From positions 1-41,130 of IMG/VR virus record IMGVR_UViG_3300019884_000003: 41,130 bases of DNA. The stretch is one strand, 5' to 3'. Shown here in pieces: positions 3,625 through 41,130 of this stretch. The stretch comes from a virus. The position numbers and the translations under genes were made by a program. The notes beneath the pieces were generated by a model. The model did no database searches, was not told the DNA's origin, and saw nothing but the letters and a program-made list of their open reading frames with translations. The stretch's first letter is position 1; the number at the start of each line of letters is the position of its first letter.

Positions 3625-4089
3625 ATGGAGAGAATGACACCAGCTGTACGGGATGCCCTAATTACCGCGATAGCTTTAAGGCAAGGCACGGCTACTGAGC
3701 TTGCAGAACGCTTCAAACGGTCTGTGGCGTCACTGAAGCGCTTCGCCAGAGAGAACCACCAGGCGATAGCGCTAGCGGCTGAGCGTGGCTCTCAGCGGGC
3801 TACAGAGGGCACTGAGCCAACCCCCACGGAGTTGGATGAGCTGTGGATAACCAACAAGTTCGAGCGGCTCAAGCGCCTGCAAGATCTGGCCGAATTGCAA
3901 TTCCAGGATGCGGCGCACGGTGACCTTGTCGGCGCAGACCTGAGCACGGCGCTCAGGGAGTTTCGATCTTATCTAGCGCTGGCAGCAAACGAGCTAGGTC
4001 AACTTCTGCACCGTGGGTCCGGCGAGTCTGGCACCAACGAAATGCTCAATGTCAACATTGAGGGAATTGACATGGAGCAACTGCGTTAA
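3625..4089 (+). CDS. Terminase small subunit (probable)
   Basis: A 154-residue protein, the DNA-recognition subunit of the packaging motor. The N-terminal 45 residues read as a helix-turn-helix (TPAVRDALITAIALRQGTAT, then ELAERFKRSVASLKRFA). The remainder is helical, as in small terminases that form oligomeric rings. The gene lies directly ahead of the large subunit. The start at 3625 (MERMTP) is chosen because a -10-like box lies 9 nt before it. An alternative ATG at 3634 has GGAGAGA touching it with no spacer, and a TTG at 3586 lies in the promoter. Family assignment rests on the fold pattern and position. Confidence 0.8.
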   Translation: MERMTPAVRDALITAIALRQGTATELAERFKRSVASLKRFARENHQAIALAAERGSQRATEGTEPTPTELDELWITNKFERLKRLQDLAELQFQDAAHGDLVGADLSTALREFRSYLALAANELGQLLHRGSGESGTNEMLNVNIEGIDMEQLR

Positions 4090-4096
4090 ACAAAGC

Positions 4097-4136
4097 TTTC
4101 TTTACAATTGATTAAAGGAAACTTTCTTTACAATTT
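4097..4136 (+). promoter_or_regulatory. Tandem TTTCTTTACAATT motifs ahead of the large terminase
   Basis: Two copies, at 4097-4110 and 4123-4136, start 26 bp apart. The second is followed by GGGGATCGAA and the ATG at 4147. This is the only tandem occurrence of the motif in the window. Confidence 0.55.
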
Positions 4137-4146
4137 GGGGATCGAA

Positions 4147-5604
4147 ATGGCAACCGCGCTCAAGCGTCGACAGAAACCCGCACGACGGACGAAGACTCAC
4201 CACTACTCACCAAGGGGAGGATGCAAGGAAGTACTTGAGGCACGCGGGGAAGAGGTGCTCATCTCAGGCCCTGCCGGTACGGGCAAGAGTCGCGCCTGCC
4301 TAGAGAAACTTTATCTAGCCTGCCTGCTCACGCCAAACACCAAGGCGCTGATTTTGCGTAAGACGTTGGCCAGCCTAGGATCTACCGCCCTGGACACGTG
4401 GCGTAAATACGTTGTCAAGGAAGCTCTTGAGACTGGCGAGGTTGTGTACTACGGCGGTAGCTCAGAGGAACCGCCACAGTACCGATTCAAGAACGGGTCA
4501 CGCGTAGTGATCGGCGGACTCGACAAGCCAACGCGCATCATGTCATCCGAGTATGACATTGTGTACGTTCAGGAAGCGACAGAGATCACGGTTGAGGATC
4601 TTGAATTTATCAAGACTCGACTTCGTAACTGGGTAATGACTTTCCAGCAGCTAATCATGGACTGCAACCCAGCAGGCGACAAGCATTGGCTCAAGCTCCG
4701 TTGCAACGAAGGGCTATGCACGCTCATCGAATCTCGCCACGAAGACAACCCCCGGCTATTCGAATTGTTGCCGGATGGCACCTACCAGGTAACCAATCAG
4801 GGTGCTAAATATATCAATATCTTGGACAACCTAACCGGGGTGCGCCACAAGCGTTTGCGCCTTGGGCTATGGGTCAGCGCTGAGGGAATCGTCTATGAGG
4901 AGTTCGATCCCGCTTACCATGTGCTGCAATGGGACTTCGATGCTGAGGGTAACCGCCTGCCCCTGCCTGCCGACTGGACACGGTATTGGGTAATTGACTT
5001 CGGCATGACACACCCCTTCGTGCTCAAGTGCTACGCGGAAGATCCTGAAGACGGTTGTCTATATATGTACCGAGAGATTTACCATACCAACCGAACCGTA
5101 TTTGAGCATGCACAAACCATTCTAGATATCGTTTGCCCAGAGGTGGAAATCAAATGGCTCGATCACATCAATCGGGTAGAGCGCGTTCGTGTTGAACGCC
5201 AATGGATTGAGCCAAAACCAACGGCGATCATCTGTGACTGGGACGCTGAGGGCAGGCGCACGTTTGAGAAGGCCACTGGCCTAGGCACGCAGAATGCAAT
5301 CAAGAACGTGTATGAAGGAATCAACCTTCACAAGGAACGCCTCAAGCGCGACAAGGGAACTGGGTTAGCGCGGTTCTATCTGATGGCGGATGCGTTGGTA
5401 GAGCGCGATCAGTATCTGGTGGATAACCTGCTACCCACGTGCACGCAAGATGAGTATCCCGCGTACGTGTGGAAGGTCAGCGCCGATGGGCGGATACAGG
5501 ATGAGCCTGTCAAGCGCGATGACCACGGGGCAGACACCGATCGCTATATGACATGCTTCAAGGATTTCAAGGGTAAGGCGCGCGTCACCATCATCGATAG
5601 CTGA
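4147..5604 (+). CDS. terL: Terminase large subunit
   Basis: The 485-residue ATP-driven motor and nuclease that packages DNA into the prohead. Walker A is GPAGTGKS (41-48). The Walker B-like strand IVYVQEATE carries the catalytic acidic residues. The C-terminal nuclease domain has the expected three acidic clusters: YWVIDFGMTHPF, IICDWDAEGR and DDHGADTDRY. ATG at 4147 is preferred because GGGGATCGAA precedes it; an upstream in-frame ATG at 4108 would translate through the second TTTCTTTACAATT motif and adds a poor N-terminus. The nuclease domain is complete, so the headful, cos or terminal-redundancy packaging mode cannot be read from it. Confidence 0.95.
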   Translation: MATALKRRQKPARRTKTHHYSPRGGCKEVLEARGEEVLISGPAGTGKSRACLEKLYLACLLTPNTKALILRKTLASLGSTALDTWRKYVVKEALETGEVVYYGGSSEEPPQYRFKNGSRVVIGGLDKPTRIMSSEYDIVYVQEATEITVEDLEFIKTRLRNWVMTFQQLIMDCNPAGDKHWLKLRCNEGLCTLIESRHEDNPRLFELLPDGTYQVTNQGAKYINILDNLTGVRHKRLRLGLWVSAEGIVYEEFDPAYHVLQWDFDAEGNRLPLPADWTRYWVIDFGMTHPFVLKCYAEDPEDGCLYMYREIYHTNRTVFEHAQTILDIVCPEVEIKWLDHINRVERVRVERQWIEPKPTAIICDWDAEGRRTFEKATGLGTQNAIKNVYEGINLHKERLKRDKGTGLARFYLMADALVERDQYLVDNLLPTCTQDEYPAYVWKVSADGRIQDEPVKRDDHGADTDRYMTCFKDFKGKARVTIIDS

Positions 5605-5624: not shown

Positions 5625-5651
5625 TGTAAAGAAAACTTTCTTTACAATTAG
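5625..5651 (+). promoter_or_regulatory. Perfect palindrome with TTTCTTTACAATTAG motif
   Basis: TGTAAAGAAA-AC-TTTCTTTACA is a perfect inverted repeat of 10-bp arms (5625-5646). Its right arm is the dispersed motif, extended to TTTCTTTACAATTAG and followed at once by the ribosome site GAGGAGAGG. It reads as a dimer-binding operator overlapping a TACAAT -10 box. Confidence 0.6.
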
Positions 5652-5666
5652 AGGAGAGGAAAGGCA

Positions 5667-5972
5667 ATGACCACAATGGACGTTCCAACCGTAGGACAGT
5701 TCGTTACCCTGAGGATCGCTAAGTTCTTTGCTAGCCGAGAGAAGACCAAGGATGCTTCTGCGCCTGCATGGTTCCAAACGGTTATTAGGCTAGTGATGCA
5801 CCTCGCCGGTTTCTCGTGCTTGACGTATGCAGGCTTTATCTGGCATCCTGCCGCCGGTTTCGTAGCGGCTGGAATCTCGTGTTTTCTGCTGTCGTGGTTG
5901 ACAACGGGAAACGGTCGGCCCACCGAACCGAAAGCAGCGCAGCCCGACCCATTGATGTACGGCAGGAAGTAA
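5667..5972 (+). CDS. Membrane protein between terminase and portal
   Basis: A 101-residue protein with two hydrophobic spans (about 39-57, FQTVIRLVMHLAGFSCLTYA, and 62-78, AAGFVAAGISCFLLSWL) and a charged Pro-rich tail. Ribosome site GAGGAGAGGAAAGGCA precedes ATG. Its position between the large terminase and portal genes is unusual for a membrane protein. It follows the palindromic motif at 5625, so it may start its own transcript. No family recognised. Confidence 0.8.
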   Translation: MTTMDVPTVGQFVTLRIAKFFASREKTKDASAPAWFQTVIRLVMHLAGFSCLTYAGFIWHPAAGFVAAGISCFLLSWLTTGNGRPTEPKAAQPDPLMYGRK

Positions 5973-17889: not shown

Positions 17890-20850
17890 ATGCCTAAGAA
17901 GCGAATCGGTGACGTATACCCATGGGATAGGTGGTATCCCCATGGGCTAGGTCCGCTTGCGCCACTTGGGTTCAGCTCTGGTGGCGGTACGCCTGCTGAG
18001 ATCACATTCCCAACTGTGCCGTTGCGCACCAAGGCAATGATTGCGCTAGCGCCTGATTTCACGCAGCCTTATTGGACATGGAATTGGGTAGACATAACCA
18101 AAGACACTGACGGTACCTCCATCGTTCGCTGGGAACAGCAAATAGATATCACCTACGGTGGCAGGGCTAACTCAGCTACGGCGGAAGCGTCGCTATGCGC
18201 ATTCAGAGCAACCAACGATCGGCGGTTCAGTAGGCGGAATCCCTATTCCCCTTACTACAACCAGCTTTCGGAGTACACACCTATCTGGATTCAACTGGAC
18301 TACGGTCAAGGATTTAAGGATAAATACTTTGGATTTATACATGATTTCGCTAAAGCGTGGGATACGCATCGCAGTGATCCTTACGTTGATCTCACTGCTC
18401 GTGGTCCGCTCCACCGAATTGGGAAAAGCAAGCCGCTAAGGTCACCCCTTTACCGCGCCATGGTAGGCGGCATTCCCCCTATGCAATATTGGGCGATTGA
18501 GGATGGTTCGGGTGCAACGCAATTTGGCTCAGCCATGGGTGGATCGCCTGGTACTCCTGAAGTAACCTTCGTCATTGGCGATGAACAGGAAGTAGTTGTT
18601 CCGGCCGGACACACTGGAATCATAGGGTCCGTGACATCAGCCGCACTTGGGCTAGCGTCGAAAATCAATATGCCCGTTGGTGTCTACACAGACACGGGAC
18701 GATGGGTAGTGCAAGGCGCTTTCATCTCTGACGACATTGATGATGGCGAACCGGCTATAGACATGCTGATGAACAATACCGATAACTACATCATCTCTGT
18801 GTCCGACGCGTTTGACTCAGGGGTTACACAGTCATTGATTGTGGAGCTATTCACTTCAGGGGATGACATCATCTTTATAGATTCCGTATTCTTTGATCGG
18901 AATCTAGTTAGTGAGCCAATGGCGATCGTGGTATCGCTTACCGATACAGGCGCTAGTGATGAGTTCACGGCGCGCGTGCTGGATATAAATGGGATCACAG
19001 TCGCAGAGATAACCACAACGGGTGTCGGGTACACCACGCCAGCAATCATCAGCGCTACAACGGCAGGCGGCACTACAGACGGACCAAGGGTAGGCGTTAG
19101 CCACGTCGGGATATTCACTAGCACGTTGTTTGATATCGACGTTGACTCTGTGACGATCGCTCAAGCGATGGGCGGTTACGACGGAGAGCTATCCATTCCT
19201 CGCTTGCGTCGCTTGAGCGCGGAAGAGAATATTCCTTTCTTCACAGCGGGATTAGATGAAGACTCCGCGCCATGCGGGCCACAGATACCCGGTAGTTTGA
19301 TTGACACGTTTAGGGCACCTGAAAAGGTAGATGGGGGAACGATATTCGAATACAAATTCGGCATTGGCTATAAGTCACACCATGAGTACACCAACCAAAC
19401 GGTTACGTTCACACTAGACGCGAATCTAGGCCAGATACGGGACTTGGGTAGTCCGGTAGATAATGATCTAGATTTCGTCAACCAGTGGACCGTTAGCCGT
19501 GTGAACGGAAGCTCTGCAACCGTAGCGGCACGCAAGGGTGAGGCAGGCGTAACGCTCACAGACAATGAATTGCTATACCCAGGAAGCGATACCGTTTCCG
19601 CGTATGACGACAACCAGCTTGAATCAATTGCGGCGCGCTACGGCAGGCGTTCAACGGTTGATGAGGATCGCTGGCCAGCAGTGAGCTTCCACCTTGCGAA
19701 GAATCCGGAACTGATTACCGCCTGGCAAGAGTTTCCGTTTGGCGGGAGACTGCAAGCGCTGAACGTATATGAGGAGGTAGGCAACACCACGCTTGACCAG
19801 ATTCACCGGGGACATCAGGAACGCTGGAATAGCTTGGTATGGGAGGTAACTCTCAACTGCGCACCTTCCGCTACGTACAACATCATGGAGCTTGATAACG
19901 CGGTCTACGGTCGGCTAGACAGCAATAGCTCAGTGCTGGTTGATGATCTAAGTGATTCCGCTATGAGTTTCATGGTTGACACAGCGGATACAGCAGAAAT
20001 CTGGACAACCGATTCCGCAGAGTTCCCGCTAGACATAGAGCTGTACCCCGGTACCGGCACAGCAATTGCATCAGGTGGCGAGACAATCCGAATCAGCAGC
20101 GTCGCATCCTTCGCTATAGACACGTTCACCCGTAGTGAAACTGACCAGTGGGGAACCATGGACACGGGGCAGGTATGGGCATTGTTCACGGTAGGAGGTG
20201 CCCTAGCTGACTTCGATGTGTCTGGCGGGGTAGGTACGATGGTTGTGGATGGTGCCAACGAGTATCGCGTCGCCATCCTCAGTGATATTGAGGCTAACCG
20301 GATACTGAACCCAGAGGTTGCAGTCACATTCACTACTGGTGTTCCAAACGTTTCAGGTGGCTCAATCGAGCCTGGCAATTTGATTCTCCGGTACGTGAAC
20401 ACCACTAACTACTACCTCTGTCGCATTGAGGTGACCACGTCGGAATTGGTCAACATCAGCATTCACAAGCTAGTGGAAAACGTCGGAACCTTGCTCAGTG
20501 CAACGGTTACCACGACTATCACATACACGGCTCAGGCACTGCGTGTGCACTTCAATGCCTACGGGAGTACGTTGCGCGCTAAGGTGTTTGATCCGGCTAA
20601 GACTTCAGCGCACATGGTGCCTTGGCAGGTTACCGCGACAGATACTACCTTCCAAAACGCTGGCGTTGTCGGCATACGCACGGGGGTAGCGTCAGGAAAT
20701 CTAGATGTACCGATTACGCTGCTGTATGACAGCTTTGAGGTATCCACACCTCAGATATTCACAGTGGATGAGCGGTCATTGAATGGAATTGTCAAGGCGC
20801 ATAAGGCGGGAACGGTTGTGCGCGTAGCTGATATGGTGGTGATCCTATGA
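17890..20850 (+). CDS. Large minor tail protein with lectin-like domain
   Basis: A 986-residue baseplate or tail-tip protein, the longest gene in the window. The first 220 residues (IALAPDFTQPYWTWNWVDIT, then YFGFIHDFAKAWDTHRSDPY) resemble the tail-tip hub region of actinophages. Residues about 275-440 form a beta domain with a TDTGASDEFTARVLDINGIT segment. Residues about 740-950 begin IDTFTRSETDQWGTMDTGQV, the DTFTR...WGT.DTGQ.W signature of concanavalin-like jelly-roll domains that bind sugars. The C-terminus returns to a hub-like segment (VDERSLNGIVKAHKAGTVVR). Nucleotides 20108-20183 within the lectin signature are duplicated exactly at 34876. Likely a host-binding protein. Confidence 0.85.
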   Translation: MPKKRIGDVYPWDRWYPHGLGPLAPLGFSSGGGTPAEITFPTVPLRTKAMIALAPDFTQPYWTWNWVDITKDTDGTSIVRWEQQIDITYGGRANSATAEASLCAFRATNDRRFSRRNPYSPYYNQLSEYTPIWIQLDYGQGFKDKYFGFIHDFAKAWDTHRSDPYVDLTARGPLHRIGKSKPLRSPLYRAMVGGIPPMQYWAIEDGSGATQFGSAMGGSPGTPEVTFVIGDEQEVVVPAGHTGIIGSVTSAALGLASKINMPVGVYTDTGRWVVQGAFISDDIDDGEPAIDMLMNNTDNYIISVSDAFDSGVTQSLIVELFTSGDDIIFIDSVFFDRNLVSEPMAIVVSLTDTGASDEFTARVLDINGITVAEITTTGVGYTTPAIISATTAGGTTDGPRVGVSHVGIFTSTLFDIDVDSVTIAQAMGGYDGELSIPRLRRLSAEENIPFFTAGLDEDSAPCGPQIPGSLIDTFRAPEKVDGGTIFEYKFGIGYKSHHEYTNQTVTFTLDANLGQIRDLGSPVDNDLDFVNQWTVSRVNGSSATVAARKGEAGVTLTDNELLYPGSDTVSAYDDNQLESIAARYGRRSTVDEDRWPAVSFHLAKNPELITAWQEFPFGGRLQALNVYEEVGNTTLDQIHRGHQERWNSLVWEVTLNCAPSATYNIMELDNAVYGRLDSNSSVLVDDLSDSAMSFMVDTADTAEIWTTDSAEFPLDIELYPGTGTAIASGGETIRISSVASFAIDTFTRSETDQWGTMDTGQVWALFTVGGALADFDVSGGVGTMVVDGANEYRVAILSDIEANRILNPEVAVTFTTGVPNVSGGSIEPGNLILRYVNTTNYYLCRIEVTTSELVNISIHKLVENVGTLLSATVTTTITYTAQALRVHFNAYGSTLRAKVFDPAKTSAHMVPWQVTATDTTFQNAGVVGIRTGVASGNLDVPITLLYDSFEVSTPQIFTVDERSLNGIVKAHKAGTVVRVADMVVIL
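20108..20183 (+). repeat. 76-bp direct repeat, tail-gene copy
   Basis: An exact 76-bp match to 34876-34951. It begins CCTTCGCTATAG and ends GGTATGGGCATT. It encodes the DTFTR signature of the tail protein's lectin-like domain, and the reading phase is the same at both places. Confidence 0.95.
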
Positions 20851-33007: not shown

Positions 33008-33186
33008 AATATTCCGTGCTACTGACTACATACGGCGCACATCTAGAGGTACTTAAGACATCACAAATTACTATTGATGAGGCGGACATGTCGTGCGGCC
33101 TCGCTATAGCCGTGTCGGCTACGGAAGCGCCACAAGTGCGTGATGTACGGGTAGAGATAAGGAAGCTTGATGCTACGGCTACGTGA
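33004..33186 (+). CDS. Hypothetical 60-residue protein
   Basis: GTG at 33004 overlaps the glycosylase stop (GTGA) with GGAGAAACAGGCA upstream; an in-frame ATG at 32989 would overlap further. The sequence alternates strands (KYSVLLTTYGAHLEVLKTS, QVRDVRVEIRKLD). It overlaps the polymerase start by 17 nt. Function unknown. Confidence 0.62.
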   Translation: MKYSVLLTTYGAHLEVLKTSQITIDEADMSCGLAIAVSATEAPQVRDVRVEIRKLDATAT

Positions 33187-34354
33187 CCGCTTAGCCGGAC
33201 AGCCAATAAGATTTCATTGTGCTGAAACGAAATCGGACCTTCGTGAGGTGGCGGAGTTCATCCGCCGCCACCGCGCGTTAGGCATGGACACGGAATCAAC
33301 TGGATTGAACAGCTATCAGCCAGGCTGGCAGTTGCGCACTGTCCAATATGGGGATGACGTTGACAGCTACGTTGTCCCCCAACGGTTTCGTAAATTCATC
33401 GCTTGGTCTATGCAGCAGCCAGTCAAATGGATTGGCCACAATGGACCACACGACATCCGTTGTATCGATGCGCACCTAGGCTTTGATACGGGGGTTGTCT
33501 GCGCCGGGGAAACCTACCTCCCCTCACACCATGCCGACAGCCGGAATCAACGGGAAGGCGGAATAGGCCACGGGCTAAAGGAATTGGCAATCGCGCTCAT
33601 CGATCCTAGCGCCGGTAAGTGGGAGATCGAGTTAAAGCGCGTGTTCAAGACAATCAAGGTGCCGATGCCTGGTGAGTTCTTTAAATCGGGACCAAGGAGG
33701 GGGCAGCCTAAGACCCGCAATGCCAAGCTCGGTGAGGGTTGGGGGTTGATTGACCCCATGCATCCGGCCTACATCGCTTACGCAGCAGCTGATCCGATCC
33801 TCACCTATCGCGTATGGCGGAAGTACCAACCGATTGTGCAAGAGTTCTATGACCTTTATGAGTTCGATCACAAGGTACAGATGGCATGCGATCTCTTGCA
33901 GCGCAGAGCTATCCGCCTTGACGTGCCGTACACCCGCGCATTGAGTGACGCGTTCACCACCAAGGCGGAACGTTATATCCAGCGGGCAAAGGAGTACGGA
34001 TGTACAAACATCCACAGTGGACGGAAGGTAGCCGCAACGCTGCTCGACCTAGGCGCTCGGCTGAAAGATCGCACTCCTACCGGCCAATACCAAGCCACTG
34101 ATGGCATCCTGCGCCGACTAGCCAAGGCCAGCAGTGATCCGGATATCAAGGAATTCGTTCGCTGTGTGCTGGTGGCAAAGCAATTGCTCAAGCGCCGGGT
34201 GAACTACACAGAAGCAATGCTGAGAGAGATGGATAGCGCCGGACGGGTTCACCCGAGCATCAACAGTCTAGGTGCGCGTACAACGCGTATGAGCGTCAGC
34301 AGGCCACCGCTACAGCAGTTGCCGACAAAGGACAGAGATGATGAGGAGGGGTAG
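33170..34354 (+). CDS. polA: DNA polymerase family A, N-terminal piece (exonuclease and thumb)
   Basis: A 394-residue fragment with the 3'-5' proofreading domain and the start of the polymerase domain. Exo I is Asp40-x-Glu42 in GMDTEST, Exo II is Asn91/Asp95 in HNGPHDIRCID, Exo III is Tyr204/Asp208 in YAAADP. It then follows the thumb and reaches HPSINSLGARTTRMS...RPPLQQLPTKD, the conserved lead-in to motif A. After Asp388 only RDDEEG follows before a stop, where an intact polymerase would continue with a segment such as SAAIRRCLIAD. That segment begins the second piece at 34957. ATG at 33170 follows AAGGAAGCTTG. Confidence 0.9.
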   Translation: MLRLRDRLAGQPIRFHCAETKSDLREVAEFIRRHRALGMDTESTGLNSYQPGWQLRTVQYGDDVDSYVVPQRFRKFIAWSMQQPVKWIGHNGPHDIRCIDAHLGFDTGVVCAGETYLPSHHADSRNQREGGIGHGLKELAIALIDPSAGKWEIELKRVFKTIKVPMPGEFFKSGPRRGQPKTRNAKLGEGWGLIDPMHPAYIAYAAADPILTYRVWRKYQPIVQEFYDLYEFDHKVQMACDLLQRRAIRLDVPYTRALSDAFTTKAERYIQRAKEYGCTNIHSGRKVAATLLDLGARLKDRTPTGQYQATDGILRRLAKASSDPDIKEFVRCVLVAKQLLKRRVNYTEAMLREMDSAGRVHPSINSLGARTTRMSVSRPPLQQLPTKDRDDEEG

Positions 34355-34356
34355 CG

Positions 34357-34584
34357 ATGAGCATGGGATTCAAGTTAATCCGCGAGATGACCCAAGAGGA
34401 AATGATTGAGGAACTACTTGCAGGGCAGAAAGCTCTGATGGCTGAAATGGATATGGACACGCTGAAGAAATACATAATCCACTACCGTCAAGGGCAGGTA
34501 ACCAAGAGGTTGGTTGAGGAAGCTGACCTATCTCCTGAGGCATACCCGATTGGCTTTCTAGGATTCGGGGAGGATCGTCAATGA
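34357..34584 (+). CDS. Hypothetical protein inside the polymerase split
   Basis: A 75-residue helical, acidic protein with AGGAGGGG ahead of its ATG, the strong ribosome site created at the end of the first polymerase piece. No motif recognised. It overlaps the next gene by 4 nt (ATGA), so the two inserted genes are translated together. Confidence 0.72.
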   Translation: MSMGFKLIREMTQEEMIEELLAGQKALMAEMDMDTLKKYIIHYRQGQVTKRLVEEADLSPEAYPIGFLGFGEDRQ

Positions 34585-34970
34585 AAATGAAATCCAGACT
34601 GCTGCCGTTCGCCAGCATCACTGAACGGCCATACGATCAGACACTACTGAAAGATGTTGACTGGTATACGATCCGGCCAACCTACGTACAGATGGCTGAT
34701 CTACACCTGACACAAGGTCATTGCAACATAGAGGGATTGTTCGGTAAGCGTTACTCGACTGACCCACATATCCGTGTAGTTCATTGGGATGAGCGGCTGT
34801 ACGTGGAAGACGGGCACCACCGTTTAGTAGAGCAGGCATTAGCCCGCAACGAAGTAGCGCTAGCCCGCGTGTTCACCTTCGCTATAGACACGTTCACCCG
34901 TAGTGAAACTGACCAGTGGGGAACCATGGACACGGGGCAGGTATGGGCATTCCCGTATGAAACTACTTAG
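34581..34970 (+). CDS. ParB/nuclease-like protein with tail-gene-derived end
   Basis: A 129-residue protein. Residues about 1-98 contain IRVVHWDERLYVEDGHHRLV followed by EQALARNEVALARVF, the DGHHR signature of ParB N-terminal-like domains found in DNA-binding or nuclease proteins. From nucleotide 34876 the reading continues, in the tail gene's own frame, as IDTFTRSETDQWGTMDTGQV and ends AFPYETT. Thus the normal end appears to have been replaced by an in-frame copy of a lectin-domain segment. Confidence 0.72.
   Translation: MKMKSRLLPFASITERPYDQTLLKDVDWYTIRPTYVQMADLHLTQGHCNIEGLFGKRYSTDPHIRVVHWDERLYVEDGHHRLVEQALARNEVALARVFTFAIDTFTRSETDQWGTMDTGQVWAFPYETT
34876..34951 (+). repeat. 76-bp direct repeat, polymerase-region copy
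   Basis: An exact copy of 20108-20183 in the tail gene. It forms the last part of the ParB-like gene and holds a possible GTG start (34903) for the second polymerase piece. The flanks on either side are unrelated to the tail gene. Confidence 0.95.
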
Positions 34971-35805
34971 CAGCGCAGCGATTCGCCGCTGTCTGATCGC
35001 CGATGTCGGCAAGGTGATTCTCACTGCTGACTTCAACCAGATCGAGCTACGTATTGCCGCTGGCCTGGCTGGCGAGCAAAGCCTGATCGATGCTGCCAAG
35101 CGCGGAGAGCACCTTATTAAGGCCAGCGCGGTCAAGCTATTCGGTGCCGACTACAACCCTGATCAGTACCGCTACACCAAGAACGTTACCTACGGGTGGC
35201 TATTCGGTGGCGGCGCAAAGACGCTGTCAGATCAGGCGGGTATCCCCTTCGCTGATGCAACTAAAATCGTTGGGGAGTACCAGGAAGCGTTTCCCGCTCT
35301 CACTGCATACAAGCGCAGAGAGCAGGAAGCGATCCTCAAGAGTGCGCTCACGCCAATGGAATACAAGCTGTATCGCACGCTGCGCTCTCAGATGTACGCC
35401 TGCCGGTATGACAGCAAGGAAGGGCAACTAGCTAGGGCGGCAATTCAAATCCAGATCAAGCGCTTGCTGTATCGGAAGATTGGCTATGCGATCACGCCGT
35501 TCGGTCGGCGCTTGATTGTAGATGCGCACAAGGCATACAGCGTCGTGAATTACAAAGTCCAGTCGACTGCTGCTGACCTGATGAAGCACGCGCTATTAGA
35601 TGTCATGGCAGACAAGGAATTAGCACCAACGGTGCTGCTGCTCATCCATGACGAAATCCTTGGGCAGGCTAGGAAGAGTGAGGCGGAACACATCGCACAA
35701 CGCTACGCCGAAGTCATGAGCCGAGAGTTCATGGGAGTACCGATTGCGGCTAGCGGCAAGGTATACGGCAAGTCATGGGGTCACGGATACATGGAGGGGA
35801 AATGA
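34957..35805 (+). CDS. polA: DNA polymerase family A, C-terminal piece (palm and fingers)
   Basis: The 282-residue catalytic part. Motif A is ADFNQIELR (metal-binding Asp25). Motif B is YRYTKNVTYGWLFGG (Lys75, Tyr79, Gly80). Motif C is LLIHDEI (His231, Asp232, Glu233). All catalytic residues are intact. ATG at 34957 gives MKLLSSAAIRR, but the ribosome site is weak (GGGGCAGG at about -20). A GTG at 34903 within the copied 76-bp segment is in frame and adds 18 residues. With the piece at 33170 it could form a working two-chain enzyme. Confidence 0.88.
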   Translation: MKLLSSAAIRRCLIADVGKVILTADFNQIELRIAAGLAGEQSLIDAAKRGEHLIKASAVKLFGADYNPDQYRYTKNVTYGWLFGGGAKTLSDQAGIPFADATKIVGEYQEAFPALTAYKRREQEAILKSALTPMEYKLYRTLRSQMYACRYDSKEGQLARAAIQIQIKRLLYRKIGYAITPFGRRLIVDAHKAYSVVNYKVQSTAADLMKHALLDVMADKELAPTVLLLIHDEILGQARKSEAEHIAQRYAEVMSREFMGVPIAASGKVYGKSWGHGYMEGK

Positions 35806-37899: not shown

Positions 37900-38088
37900 G
37901 TGGCGACGCTGATTAGCAGGGCGCAAGGTGGACCGCGAGACGGAGTTAAGCTCATGTGCCCATCGTCGTGGGATGGCACCATAGAGCGCCCTAGAAACGC
38001 CTCAGGGCCGATTTCACGCTACCCTGGTAAGTACGTGTGGGATCACGACTTTGAAGCGTGGATTTGGCACACAGACAGAGACAGATAG
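37900..38088 (+). CDS. Hypothetical 62-residue protein
   Basis: GTG at 37900 with GGAAAGGAATAGGT upstream. The pattern RAQGGPRDGVKLMCPSSWDG, then a Tyr/Trp-rich end, is compact. It sits as a single gene between two terminators. Function unknown; similar small proteins occur in actinophage early regions. Confidence 0.72.
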   Translation: MATLISRAQGGPRDGVKLMCPSSWDGTIERPRNASGPISRYPGKYVWDHDFEAWIWHTDRDR

Positions 38089-38090
38089 CA

Positions 38091-38123
38091 AGAACCCCCT
38101 CGCTCATAAAGCGTGGGGGTTCT
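38091..38123 (+). terminator. Hairpin between the 62-residue gene and the primase gene
   Basis: AGAACCCCC (38091-38099) and GGGGGTTCT (38115-38123), with inner CGCT/AGCG. The following CTTGCGC has no T-run. It lies 3 nt after the previous stop and 22 nt ahead of the primase-helicase start. Confidence 0.7.
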
Positions 38124-38144
38124 CTTGCGCAGAGAGGAGAGGAA

Positions 38145-40478
38145 ATGGTGTACCAGCGTTCGGCGCTCCCGAAACACCGAACCGACGATAACACACCAGG
38201 GGTCAACGTCCCTAGCCCTGTGGCACTGGGATGGTCGCCCTTCCATACAGCAGCAGAGGATTACTTGCAAGCAGGCTTCCTTCCCATTCCTTTGCCATCG
38301 GGTAAGAAGTTCCCACCCCCCAAGGGAGTACCCAATGATCTGGACTATACCGAGACAACCTTAGAAGAGTGGCTTGCTGGCATCTATCGCAACGGGGACA
38401 AGCAACGGATTGACAAGGGAGCAAAGAACATTGGCACCATCGTGCCGGATGGCGTTGTCGTGTTTGACATTGACGGGCCATCGGGCAAGGAAACGCTTGC
38501 AGAGCTTGAAAATTCGCTAGGCGCACTGCCGCCTACGTGGATGACATTCCGTGGTGACGTCGACAGATATCACCTCTGGTTTGTCACACCAGGTGGGCTA
38601 ACGTGGCCGGGTAAGTTAGGGGCTGGCCTTGATATCATTTATCGTCATTACCGCTATGTGGTTGTGCCTCCGTCTGTACATCCTAACGGTAATCAATACC
38701 GATGGATCACAAACTCACGAGGTGGCGCAAGGCTTTTGCAGTATCTGCCAGCGCCCGATGAATTCGCGGACTTGCCCGAAGCGTGGCTTAGTCTCACCAA
38801 CGGCAACGGCTACGTTCGTCGCGATCGTGCGGAAGTGGATGCGCGCTTGTGGATTCAAGAGCACGGCGCTGGATCGCCCTGCCCACAAATGAAAAGGGTT
38901 GTACTGACGCATCTTAGGCTGATGCGCAAGCACGCTGATCTAGGTGGGCTACACGATGCGATGGTTAACGCTGTGTGGTCAGTGTTGGCTGAAATTAGCC
39001 AGGGACACAAAGGGGGACACGCAGCGTTAGCTAAGCTCAAATCCACATTCACCATACAAGCTGATGAGTCCGGCAGGCGCGATCCTGGTGCACCTGAGGC
39101 GGAATGGGCTAGGGCATGCGTTGGTGCCATTGAGAAAACAGCGATAGAGCGCGTGCGCCAAGGTGACCCGTGCGAGGTAGAGGAAGCGGAACGAGGTCAA
39201 GACCCTGCAAGGTTTTTCGATACCAAGCATGGACTCAAGGCGCGCTCATTACGCAAATCTGTTGAGGCTACAGGACAATTGGCTGTCGGCCCTGGTGGAA
39301 TGATTTACCGGCACACCGATGGACTATGGGTGCCTGATGGTGAGGCAGAGATCTACCGGCGCACTGAATCCCTTCTACGCCAACGATGGAGGCCAGCGCA
39401 CGCTGAGAATGTGCGGAAGGTAGTCGAGCACCGTGAGCCGTTCATCACTGATGACGGACAGGATTTGCGTTACCTGAACTTGCCAAATGGTTTGCTGGAT
39501 TGGAAATCCGGCAAGCTGTATCCGCATAATCCTTCTGTAGTAAGCACAATGCGTATCCCTGTTGAGTGGGATGACGACGCTGACTGCCCTGATATCGATG
39601 AGTTCTTTAGGCAGGTGTTCCCTGGTGACGCGATCGAGCTTGCATACGAGATCCTTGGATACATGCTTTACAACGACAACCCTTTACACAAAGCCATTCT
39701 CCTATACGGATCAGGCCGTAATGGGAAGGGCACATTTATCAGATTGGCTCGAATGCTTGTGGGGCACAGCAACATCTCAGCCGTCACCCCTCAAGCATTG
39801 GACTCTAGTCAGTTTTCGTCAGCGCAGCTTTACGGGAAGTTGGCAAATCTCGTTGGTGACGTTGACCCTCGCATCTTCAAGAGCACAGAGCAATTCAAGC
39901 AATTAACTGGTGGTGACTACATGATGGCGCAGCACAAGCACAAGAACCCTTTCACGTTCAGGTGTCGCGCGCTCATGGTCGCTGCGTTCAACGCGCTTCC
40001 CCGGACAGCGGACACCACAGAGGGTTTCTTCAGCCGTTGGGTCGTTGTCCCGTTCAGCGCCTTTTTCCCGGCTGGCAAAGCTGACACCCTCCTCATAGAC
40101 AGGCTCACCTCTCCTAGGAATTTACAGGGGCTACTGAGGGGCGCGGTTGGTGGTCTACAGCAAGTCATGCGACGTGGGTCGTTCGCCATTCCGCCATCCG
40201 TCGCCAGCGCCACTGAGCGTTTCAAGATGGAGGCTGATCCAATGCGAGGCTTCATCGAAGAGAGAGTTAGCTTTGAGGGCCGAGCGTTTACAGCGCGCAC
40301 GGAGATCTACGCGGCGTATGCGACATGGGCAGCGATGAATGGATTTCATCAGATGTCAGCTCAGCGATTCTATGAATCATTTACTGCGGCGTGCGTTGAC
40401 ACAAAGCAATCTGTAATGCGCGCAGCTATATTGCACGGGGTAAATGGGTATCGGGGAATTACCTTAGGGCGGCAATAG
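38145..40478 (+). CDS. Prim-Pol/helicase fusion (primase-helicase)
   Basis: A 777-residue replication protein. Residues about 30-200 are a bifunctional primase/polymerase domain: catalytic acids in VVVFDIDG (Asp108, Asp110), His143 in DRYHLWFV and a conserved PPSVHPNG (175-182). A middle D5-N-like region follows. The C-terminal half is a superfamily 3/D5-type helicase with Walker A GSGRNGKGT (522-530) and a Walker B-like LVGDVDPR. From codon 622 the gene lies in the right ITR, so its last 156 codons are repeated in reverse at 653-1121. It follows AGAGGAGAGGAA; ATG at 38145 is chosen for this site. Confidence 0.92.
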   Translation: MVYQRSALPKHRTDDNTPGVNVPSPVALGWSPFHTAAEDYLQAGFLPIPLPSGKKFPPPKGVPNDLDYTETTLEEWLAGIYRNGDKQRIDKGAKNIGTIVPDGVVVFDIDGPSGKETLAELENSLGALPPTWMTFRGDVDRYHLWFVTPGGLTWPGKLGAGLDIIYRHYRYVVVPPSVHPNGNQYRWITNSRGGARLLQYLPAPDEFADLPEAWLSLTNGNGYVRRDRAEVDARLWIQEHGAGSPCPQMKRVVLTHLRLMRKHADLGGLHDAMVNAVWSVLAEISQGHKGGHAALAKLKSTFTIQADESGRRDPGAPEAEWARACVGAIEKTAIERVRQGDPCEVEEAERGQDPARFFDTKHGLKARSLRKSVEATGQLAVGPGGMIYRHTDGLWVPDGEAEIYRRTESLLRQRWRPAHAENVRKVVEHREPFITDDGQDLRYLNLPNGLLDWKSGKLYPHNPSVVSTMRIPVEWDDDADCPDIDEFFRQVFPGDAIELAYEILGYMLYNDNPLHKAILLYGSGRNGKGTFIRLARMLVGHSNISAVTPQALDSSQFSSAQLYGKLANLVGDVDPRIFKSTEQFKQLTGGDYMMAQHKHKNPFTFRCRALMVAAFNALPRTADTTEGFFSRWVVVPFSAFFPAGKADTLLIDRLTSPRNLQGLLRGAVGGLQQVMRRGSFAIPPSVASATERFKMEADPMRGFIEERVSFEGRAFTARTEIYAAYATWAAMNGFHQMSAQRFYESFTAACVDTKQSVMRAAILHGVNGYRGITLGRQ

Positions 40479-41130
40479 ATTTAACCCCCCGGGGGTGGGG
40501 GCAGGTATAAGGGGTGGGGTCAGACTATATTGCAATATGGAGGTAACCTCTAATATGCAGTATGGTTTGGCCCTACCTTTTGACCCCACGTCCACCCTTA
40601 TTAATTCTTGTTGCGCTGCAACACATTCTTTCGGTCCTTACAATGAATTAAAATAAATCAATGTTTGGTTTTGTTGTATTCGAGACATGGAAATATTTCG
40701 ATCGCTACAATTAGTTACTCGTCACTAAAAGTAATTGTGACGGTCGGTAATCAAAAAAGTCCAGTGACGATCTTCAATCTTTCGGCCATCGGGCACAGAG
40801 TTACACTAATAAAATCCCACCGTCCAATGTGGACACAGCGCCTTATACATTTTGCAAATAGGTTCTGACCAGCGCTAATGCACTGTCCTATCCGGACCGA
40901 ACAGAGATTGATATTAATCGATACGTATGGATATACACCACCCGCCAGCGCGAGCATCGACCCACTGAAGCGTTTGAATATAGAGCCCCGTCACTTTAAG
41001 TTACTAATTACGCTCCGTTATTTTAATCAATTTAAATATAAACTAAATCAACTTAATCAATAAAAAATTCCATCAAATTCAAACAAAAATAAATTTAAAT
41101 AAATGAATTAACACAATACGACATATACGT
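40010..41130. repeat. Right inverted terminal repeat, about 1,121 bp
   Basis: Reverse complement of 1-1121. It begins inside codon 622 of the primase-helicase gene and continues 652 bases past its stop into an AT-rich end without genes. Ends read ACGTATATGTCG at the left and CGACATATACGT at the right. Confidence 0.95.
40491..40519 (+). other. G-quadruplex-like tract, right ITR
   Basis: G5-T-G5, 9-nt loop, G4-T-G4 on the plus strand, 12 nt after the primase-helicase stop. It is preceded by a C6 run with which the first G-run could pair, so quadruplex and hairpin forms would compete. Confidence 0.5.

Follow-up and report, generated by a model that had tools for sequence, protein, structure and literature searches.

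A 76-nt segment of a phage tail gene was found as an exact second copy near the end of a small ParB-like gene, which lies between the two genes of a split family A DNA polymerase. We consider it probable (roughly 0.7) that this copy is a recent, single, microhomology-type templated insertion that went in in frame and has no detected function of its own. The DNA analysed was a metagenome contig, IMG/VR record IMGVR_UViG_3300019884_000003, positions 1 to 41,130; this whole stretch of 41,130 nucleotides is called the window below.

The duplicated segment, its donor and its recipient

Searching the entire window for repeats returned three families of direct repeats, namely a run of acidic codons of low complexity, a short element of regulatory appearance and a 76-nt pair; low-complexity sequence aside, the pair was the sole long direct repeat in the record. 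The features concerned were the following:

17890..20850, + strand: tail protein gene, 986 aa, holding the source copy; 26-31% identical to Streptomyces phage minor tail proteins; phrog_5313 and phrog_24476
20108..20183, + strand: source copy, where the C-terminal lectin-like domain begins (residues ~740-765), placed by identity and by a motif kept in the relatives' tail proteins
34581..34970, + strand: small ParB-like/VapB-like gene with an LYVEDGHHR motif, its C terminus now tail-derived; PF23719 (Pfam: VapB-like)
34876..34951, + strand: second, ectopic copy identical to 20108-20183; a net gain of 63 nt (21 codons) over G001

The two copies are identical at 76 of 76 nucleotides, lie in direct orientation and are 14,768 bp apart, and the 301 nt surrounding the segment, when used as a query against the record, matched at these two places only. 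The computed chance expectation for an exact 76-mer repeat in 41 kb was about 1.5e-37. Codon phase is also equal in both copies (offset 1 in tail ORF 17890-20850 and in ORF 34581-34970), and of the segment's three frames the tail frame alone is free of stops. The exact identity, shared phase and spacing of about 14.8 kb reported by an earlier sequence-only reading were thus borne out.

In the 986-aa tail protein the segment forms the beginning of the C-terminal lectin-like domain, and at the same place in the tail proteins of three relatives (G006, G004 and G005) the pattern (I/V)DTFTR / DxFxR...W...(D/T).G was recognisable. Because the relatives keep this DTFTR/lectin start in their tail proteins, sequence comparison identifies the tail gene as the source of the copy and the segment as foreign at 34876. 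There, the translation of the copy reads FAIDTFTRSETDQWGTMDTGQVWA, and the copy accounts for 24 of the 30 C-terminal residues of ORF 34581-34970, which supports the proposal that the copy forms the C terminus of the ParB-like protein.

Among relatives that have this locus, the nearest was G001 (L003; IMGVR_UViG_3300020003_000104). It has a ParB-like gene at the corresponding place, 55% identical and without the segment, and the contig is collinear with G001 on both sides of the insertion. The ParB-like protein ends in RVF-C-F-GLV-PYEATQ-stop in G001 and in RVF-T-F-AIDTFTRSETDQWGTMDTGQVWAF-PYETT-stop in the window, and the C-terminal end of a remoter homologue reads ...ARVFEV. Compared with G001, the window thus shows a net gain of 63 nt, or 21 codons, in frame and five codons ahead of the ParB-like stop. 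Searches of phage records, PHROGs and NCBIfam with the ParB-like protein matched nothing. Its structure model was poor (mean pLDDT 41), at which a disordered tail and an unmodelled one are indistinguishable; the inserted 21-residue stretch is probably unstructured.

The exact 76-mer was found in no contig of IMG/VR outside the record, and a dispersed repeat comparable to the 76-nt pair occurred in none of the six relatives (G001-G006). The zero divergence of the pair supports a recent copying of tail-gene DNA. As to the suggestion that the segment is recent or still exchanged, recency agrees with the identity of the copies, but identity does not show exchange.

The split polymerase genes and the pocket between them

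The recipient gene belongs to a set of small genes bounded by two polymerase genes:

33173..34354, + strand: polN, 3′-5′ exonuclease plus thumb and first palm part of a family A DNA polymerase; PF01612, and PF00476 positions 5-137
34357..34584, + strand: ORF of 75 aa in the pocket between the polymerase halves, with homologues in the pockets of five of the six relatives
34957..35805, + strand: polC, the rest of the polymerase domain with motifs A and C and its own ATG; PF00476 positions 139-380

With PF00476 covered from 5 to 137 by polN and from 139 to 380 by polC, no polymerase sequence is missing, and phrog_17 was covered in the same manner (652-990 and 994-1234, respectively). polN and polC occur as separate genes in seven phage contigs (the window and G001-G006; loci L003 and L007-L011), where they are 61-80% identical and where the split site is constant, after LQQLPT (variant FQQLPT) and before (I/V)RR(C/A). 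Between the window and G001, dN/dS was about 0.09 for polN (0.144/1.554) and about 0.11 for polC (0.166/1.521), dS being saturated in more distant pairs. These low ratios point to purifying selection on each half and to a maintained operon. An unsplit polymerase, in which the conserved motif that precedes the split site stands in the same open frame, was found in most of the more distant relatives in the same scan and also in Microbacterium phage Barnstormer and Mycobacterium phage Obama12.

An Rfam covariance search of the window for intron RNA gave no match, and none of the intervening small genes was recognised as a homing endonuclease. RNA splicing of the halves is disfavoured because polC has its own conserved start codon; together with the Rfam result, this makes a group I or group II intron in the polymerase gene unlikely. 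We therefore read polN and polC as predicted to encode two separate proteins rather than a spliced gene. Among the PHROGs, the N-type phrog_12241 ends and the C-type phrog_2573 begins near the same site, consistent with other split polymerases. In a structure model of polC alone, the fingers were confident and the palm strands were of low confidence, the pattern one would anticipate for a palm that depends on polN, although it is not proof. It is possible, judging from the sequences, that polN and polC constitute a natural two-subunit Pol I.

Split polymerases as such are already known; what is new here is the position of the split and the variable pocket. OM43 phages MEP401 and MEP402 also have a split family A DNA polymerase (PMC10580990; OP830906), with the exonuclease plus N-terminal part and the C-terminal part in separate genes and a small gene between them. 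In MEP401, however, the cut lies about 12 residues further on, as IKTLFLSRYGE is still part of gp13 and the start of gp15 comes just ahead of motif A, whereas here the cut precedes IRRC; the pocket genes here are also mostly more numerous and more variable than those of MEP401/MEP402. Homology of the 75-aa ORF to MEP401 gp14 was not supported (hhalign probability, 11%). According to work cited in PMC10580990, group I introns interrupt DNA polymerase genes of HMU phages. So far as that citation describes them, intron- or homing-element-interrupted polymerases resemble the present case in that the interruption lies near a conserved motif, and differ from it in that here Rfam gave no match, polC has its own conserved start and no homing endonuclease was recognised.

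The gap between the polymerase halves ranges from 311 to 1195 nt and holds differing small ORFs. A family of about 75 aa with the pattern GFK.I..M....LI.E has a pocket member in five of the six relatives; its homologue was not found in G001, and at the thresholds applied Pfam, PHROGs and NCBIfam gave no match to the window's 75-aa protein. Both the split and the pocket of small genes occur in relatives without the copy, so that the earlier description of a polymerase insertion tied to the copy did not hold.

At the downstream end of the pocket, the ParB-like stop (TAT GAA ACT ACT TAG) overlaps the polC start (ATG AAA CTA CTT AG). The overlap is arranged alike in G001, and the copy leaves the stop and the polC start in an unaltered relative frame. 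The polC start, ATG 34957, lies outside the copy, and the start codon is untouched. Across the seven genomes the polC N terminus is M(K/R)LLS or a close variant (MKLLS in the window); the start codon is ATG in five, GTG in G003, and in G005 there is an in-frame ATG a few codons upstream. The sequence-only reading had placed an alternative start of the second polymerase piece within the copy. GTG 34903 is indeed open in frame with polC, and starting there would lengthen the protein by 18 residues that are not conserved. This start is not required, and the conserved one is ATG 34957. Since two of the three frames of the segment have stops, the overlap keeps working only if the insertion is in phase and has a suitable length. 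Such in-frame placement has a chance of about 1/9, and it weakly favours a real insertion filtered by selection.

Terminal repeats and other features of the record

The window carries perfect 1121-bp inverted terminal repeats, at 1-1121 and 40010-41130. The inner repeat edge lies in this gene:

38058-40478: primase/helicase gene holding the inner repeat edge

The edge falls at ...GC/GGACACCAC... (slash, position of the edge; codons ...RTADTTEGFF). Diverged relatives have the repeat edge at the same nucleotide, G004 at both ends and G006 at the left end. The G001 contig stops 127 bases and the G005 contig 99 bases past the same edge, as if the assembler had met a collapsed inverted repeat. Unlike these stops, the contigs of G002 (L044/L045) and G003 (L046/L047) end at one homologous primase position, at about codon 777, and the repeat edge of these two may lie elsewhere. 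Conserved long inverted terminal repeats, if real, would be very unusual in a tailed phage. The outermost 100 bp of the repeat (1-100 / 41031-41130) has 17% G+C, compared with 54% for the record.

In the left part of the genome, a near-palindromic element like TAAAGAAAACTTTCTTTACAATT occurs four times at or upstream of gene starts (2880-2920, 4087-4153 and 5627-5667) and looks like an operator or promoter element. A host search via bacterial genomes gave remote matches only, in Kribbella and a Deltaproteobacterial MAG.

Origin of the copy and its meaning

The proposal of a template-switch product was judged the best explanation of the copy, which has two junctions and a distant, unchanged donor. 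During copying or repair, a nascent strand would have switched at a short microhomology onto the tail gene, with the left-edge switch point probably at CCTTCG; about 70 nt of the tail gene would then have been copied before the strand switched back a little ahead of the polC start, for which GGCATT is a possible site. The landing site would have been a pocket in which genes turn over, flanked by the two genes of a PolA that was split long ago, and the insertion may have been tolerated as it kept the frame and the overlapping ParB-like stop and preserved a coupled polC start. The switch mechanism, the role of microhomology, the translational coupling and the neutrality of the insertion are what we infer from the arrangement of the sequences.

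The exact copy with its donor still in place, and the insertion-free site seen in G001, agree with a templated insertion. At the left edge, the TTCG of CCTTCG is present at the homologous site of G001, ...GTGTTCTGTTTCGGCC... (GTTTCGG), and the first bases of the copy may therefore be pre-existing microhomology; at the right edge, GGCATT may have had the same role, although the ancestral sequence there is not recoverable. The microhomology is suggestive only, because the junction ancestor is deduced from G001, in which the ParB-like protein shares just 55% identity with that of the window. Among the genes of the phage are those for an AAA_24 ATPase, a PD-(D/E)XK nuclease and an SNF2 helicase, and these could favour recombination events. 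Microhomology-mediated templated insertions (MMBIR or template switching) are described for eukaryotic cells (PMC8421209, PMC11724301). The copy resembles those insertions in being a short exact copy of a distant sequence with two junctions, possible microhomology of a few bases and an unchanged donor, and differs from them in that the recipient is a phage genome.

Since the copy is carried by one genome only, its recency and its reality rest on one assembly. The main rival is accordingly a library or assembly artefact, in which a chimeric molecule or a mis-joined path set tail sequence between the ParB-like gene and polC. The single occurrence, the zero divergence, a length of 76 nt near the common k-mer size k=77, and a source that is a metagenome contig whose segment is in no other contig of the collection all fit such an error. 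Nevertheless, the contig is collinear with G001 on either side of two separate clean junctions, and the segment is in frame and leaves the gene open, as an artefact would be expected to do about one time in nine. Furthermore, the relative contigs that stop exactly 127 or 99 bases into the collapsed repeat suggest a k well above 76 for such data, although the window's own k may differ. Taking these points together, we regard an artefact as unlikely.

If the insertion is real, it might have been co-opted, either as a useful C-terminal tail of the ParB-like protein or through an altered polC initiation region (e.g., GGGGCAGG shortly upstream of ATG 34957). Its in-frame position immediately upstream of the polC start and its unchanged peptide would suit this, but the peptide comprises only the first ~24 residues of the lectin domain and no fold, G001 and other relatives do without it, and DNA identity signals recency rather than selection, which makes co-option improbable. 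It is very improbable that the pocket is a hot spot that captures pieces of its own genome in frame, so that small genes would evolve by grafting and tune the second polymerase subunit. Least credible is a dedicated recombination or diversification element, serving as a donor of tail variation or as an inversion or deletion joint, even with two perfect copies of which one lies in a protein of host-recognition type. The direct orientation rules out the inversion joint that had been suggested, as recombination could only delete or duplicate 14.8 kb, and exchange would remove tail, nuclease and polymerase genes with it. Nor did the idea of a source of tail variation survive, since the copies are identical, no reverse transcriptase (PF00078) was found in the record, and the relatives have no such repeat or second copy. 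A diversity-generating retroelement was rejected likewise, as the 100% identical repeats show no differences at template adenines and PF00078 is lacking.

A templated insertion thus remains the preferred reading. If real, it would be a fresh example of a phage gene gaining a new end by copying a fragment of an unrelated gene, caught before divergence. Of greater value than the copy is its setting, a phage lineage whose replicative polymerase is predicted to be produced as two proteins while the small genes between them change; the conserved split polymerase and, separately, the conserved inverted terminal repeats merit more attention than the copy. This lineage offers a way to test whether a split Pol I is reconstituted in nature.
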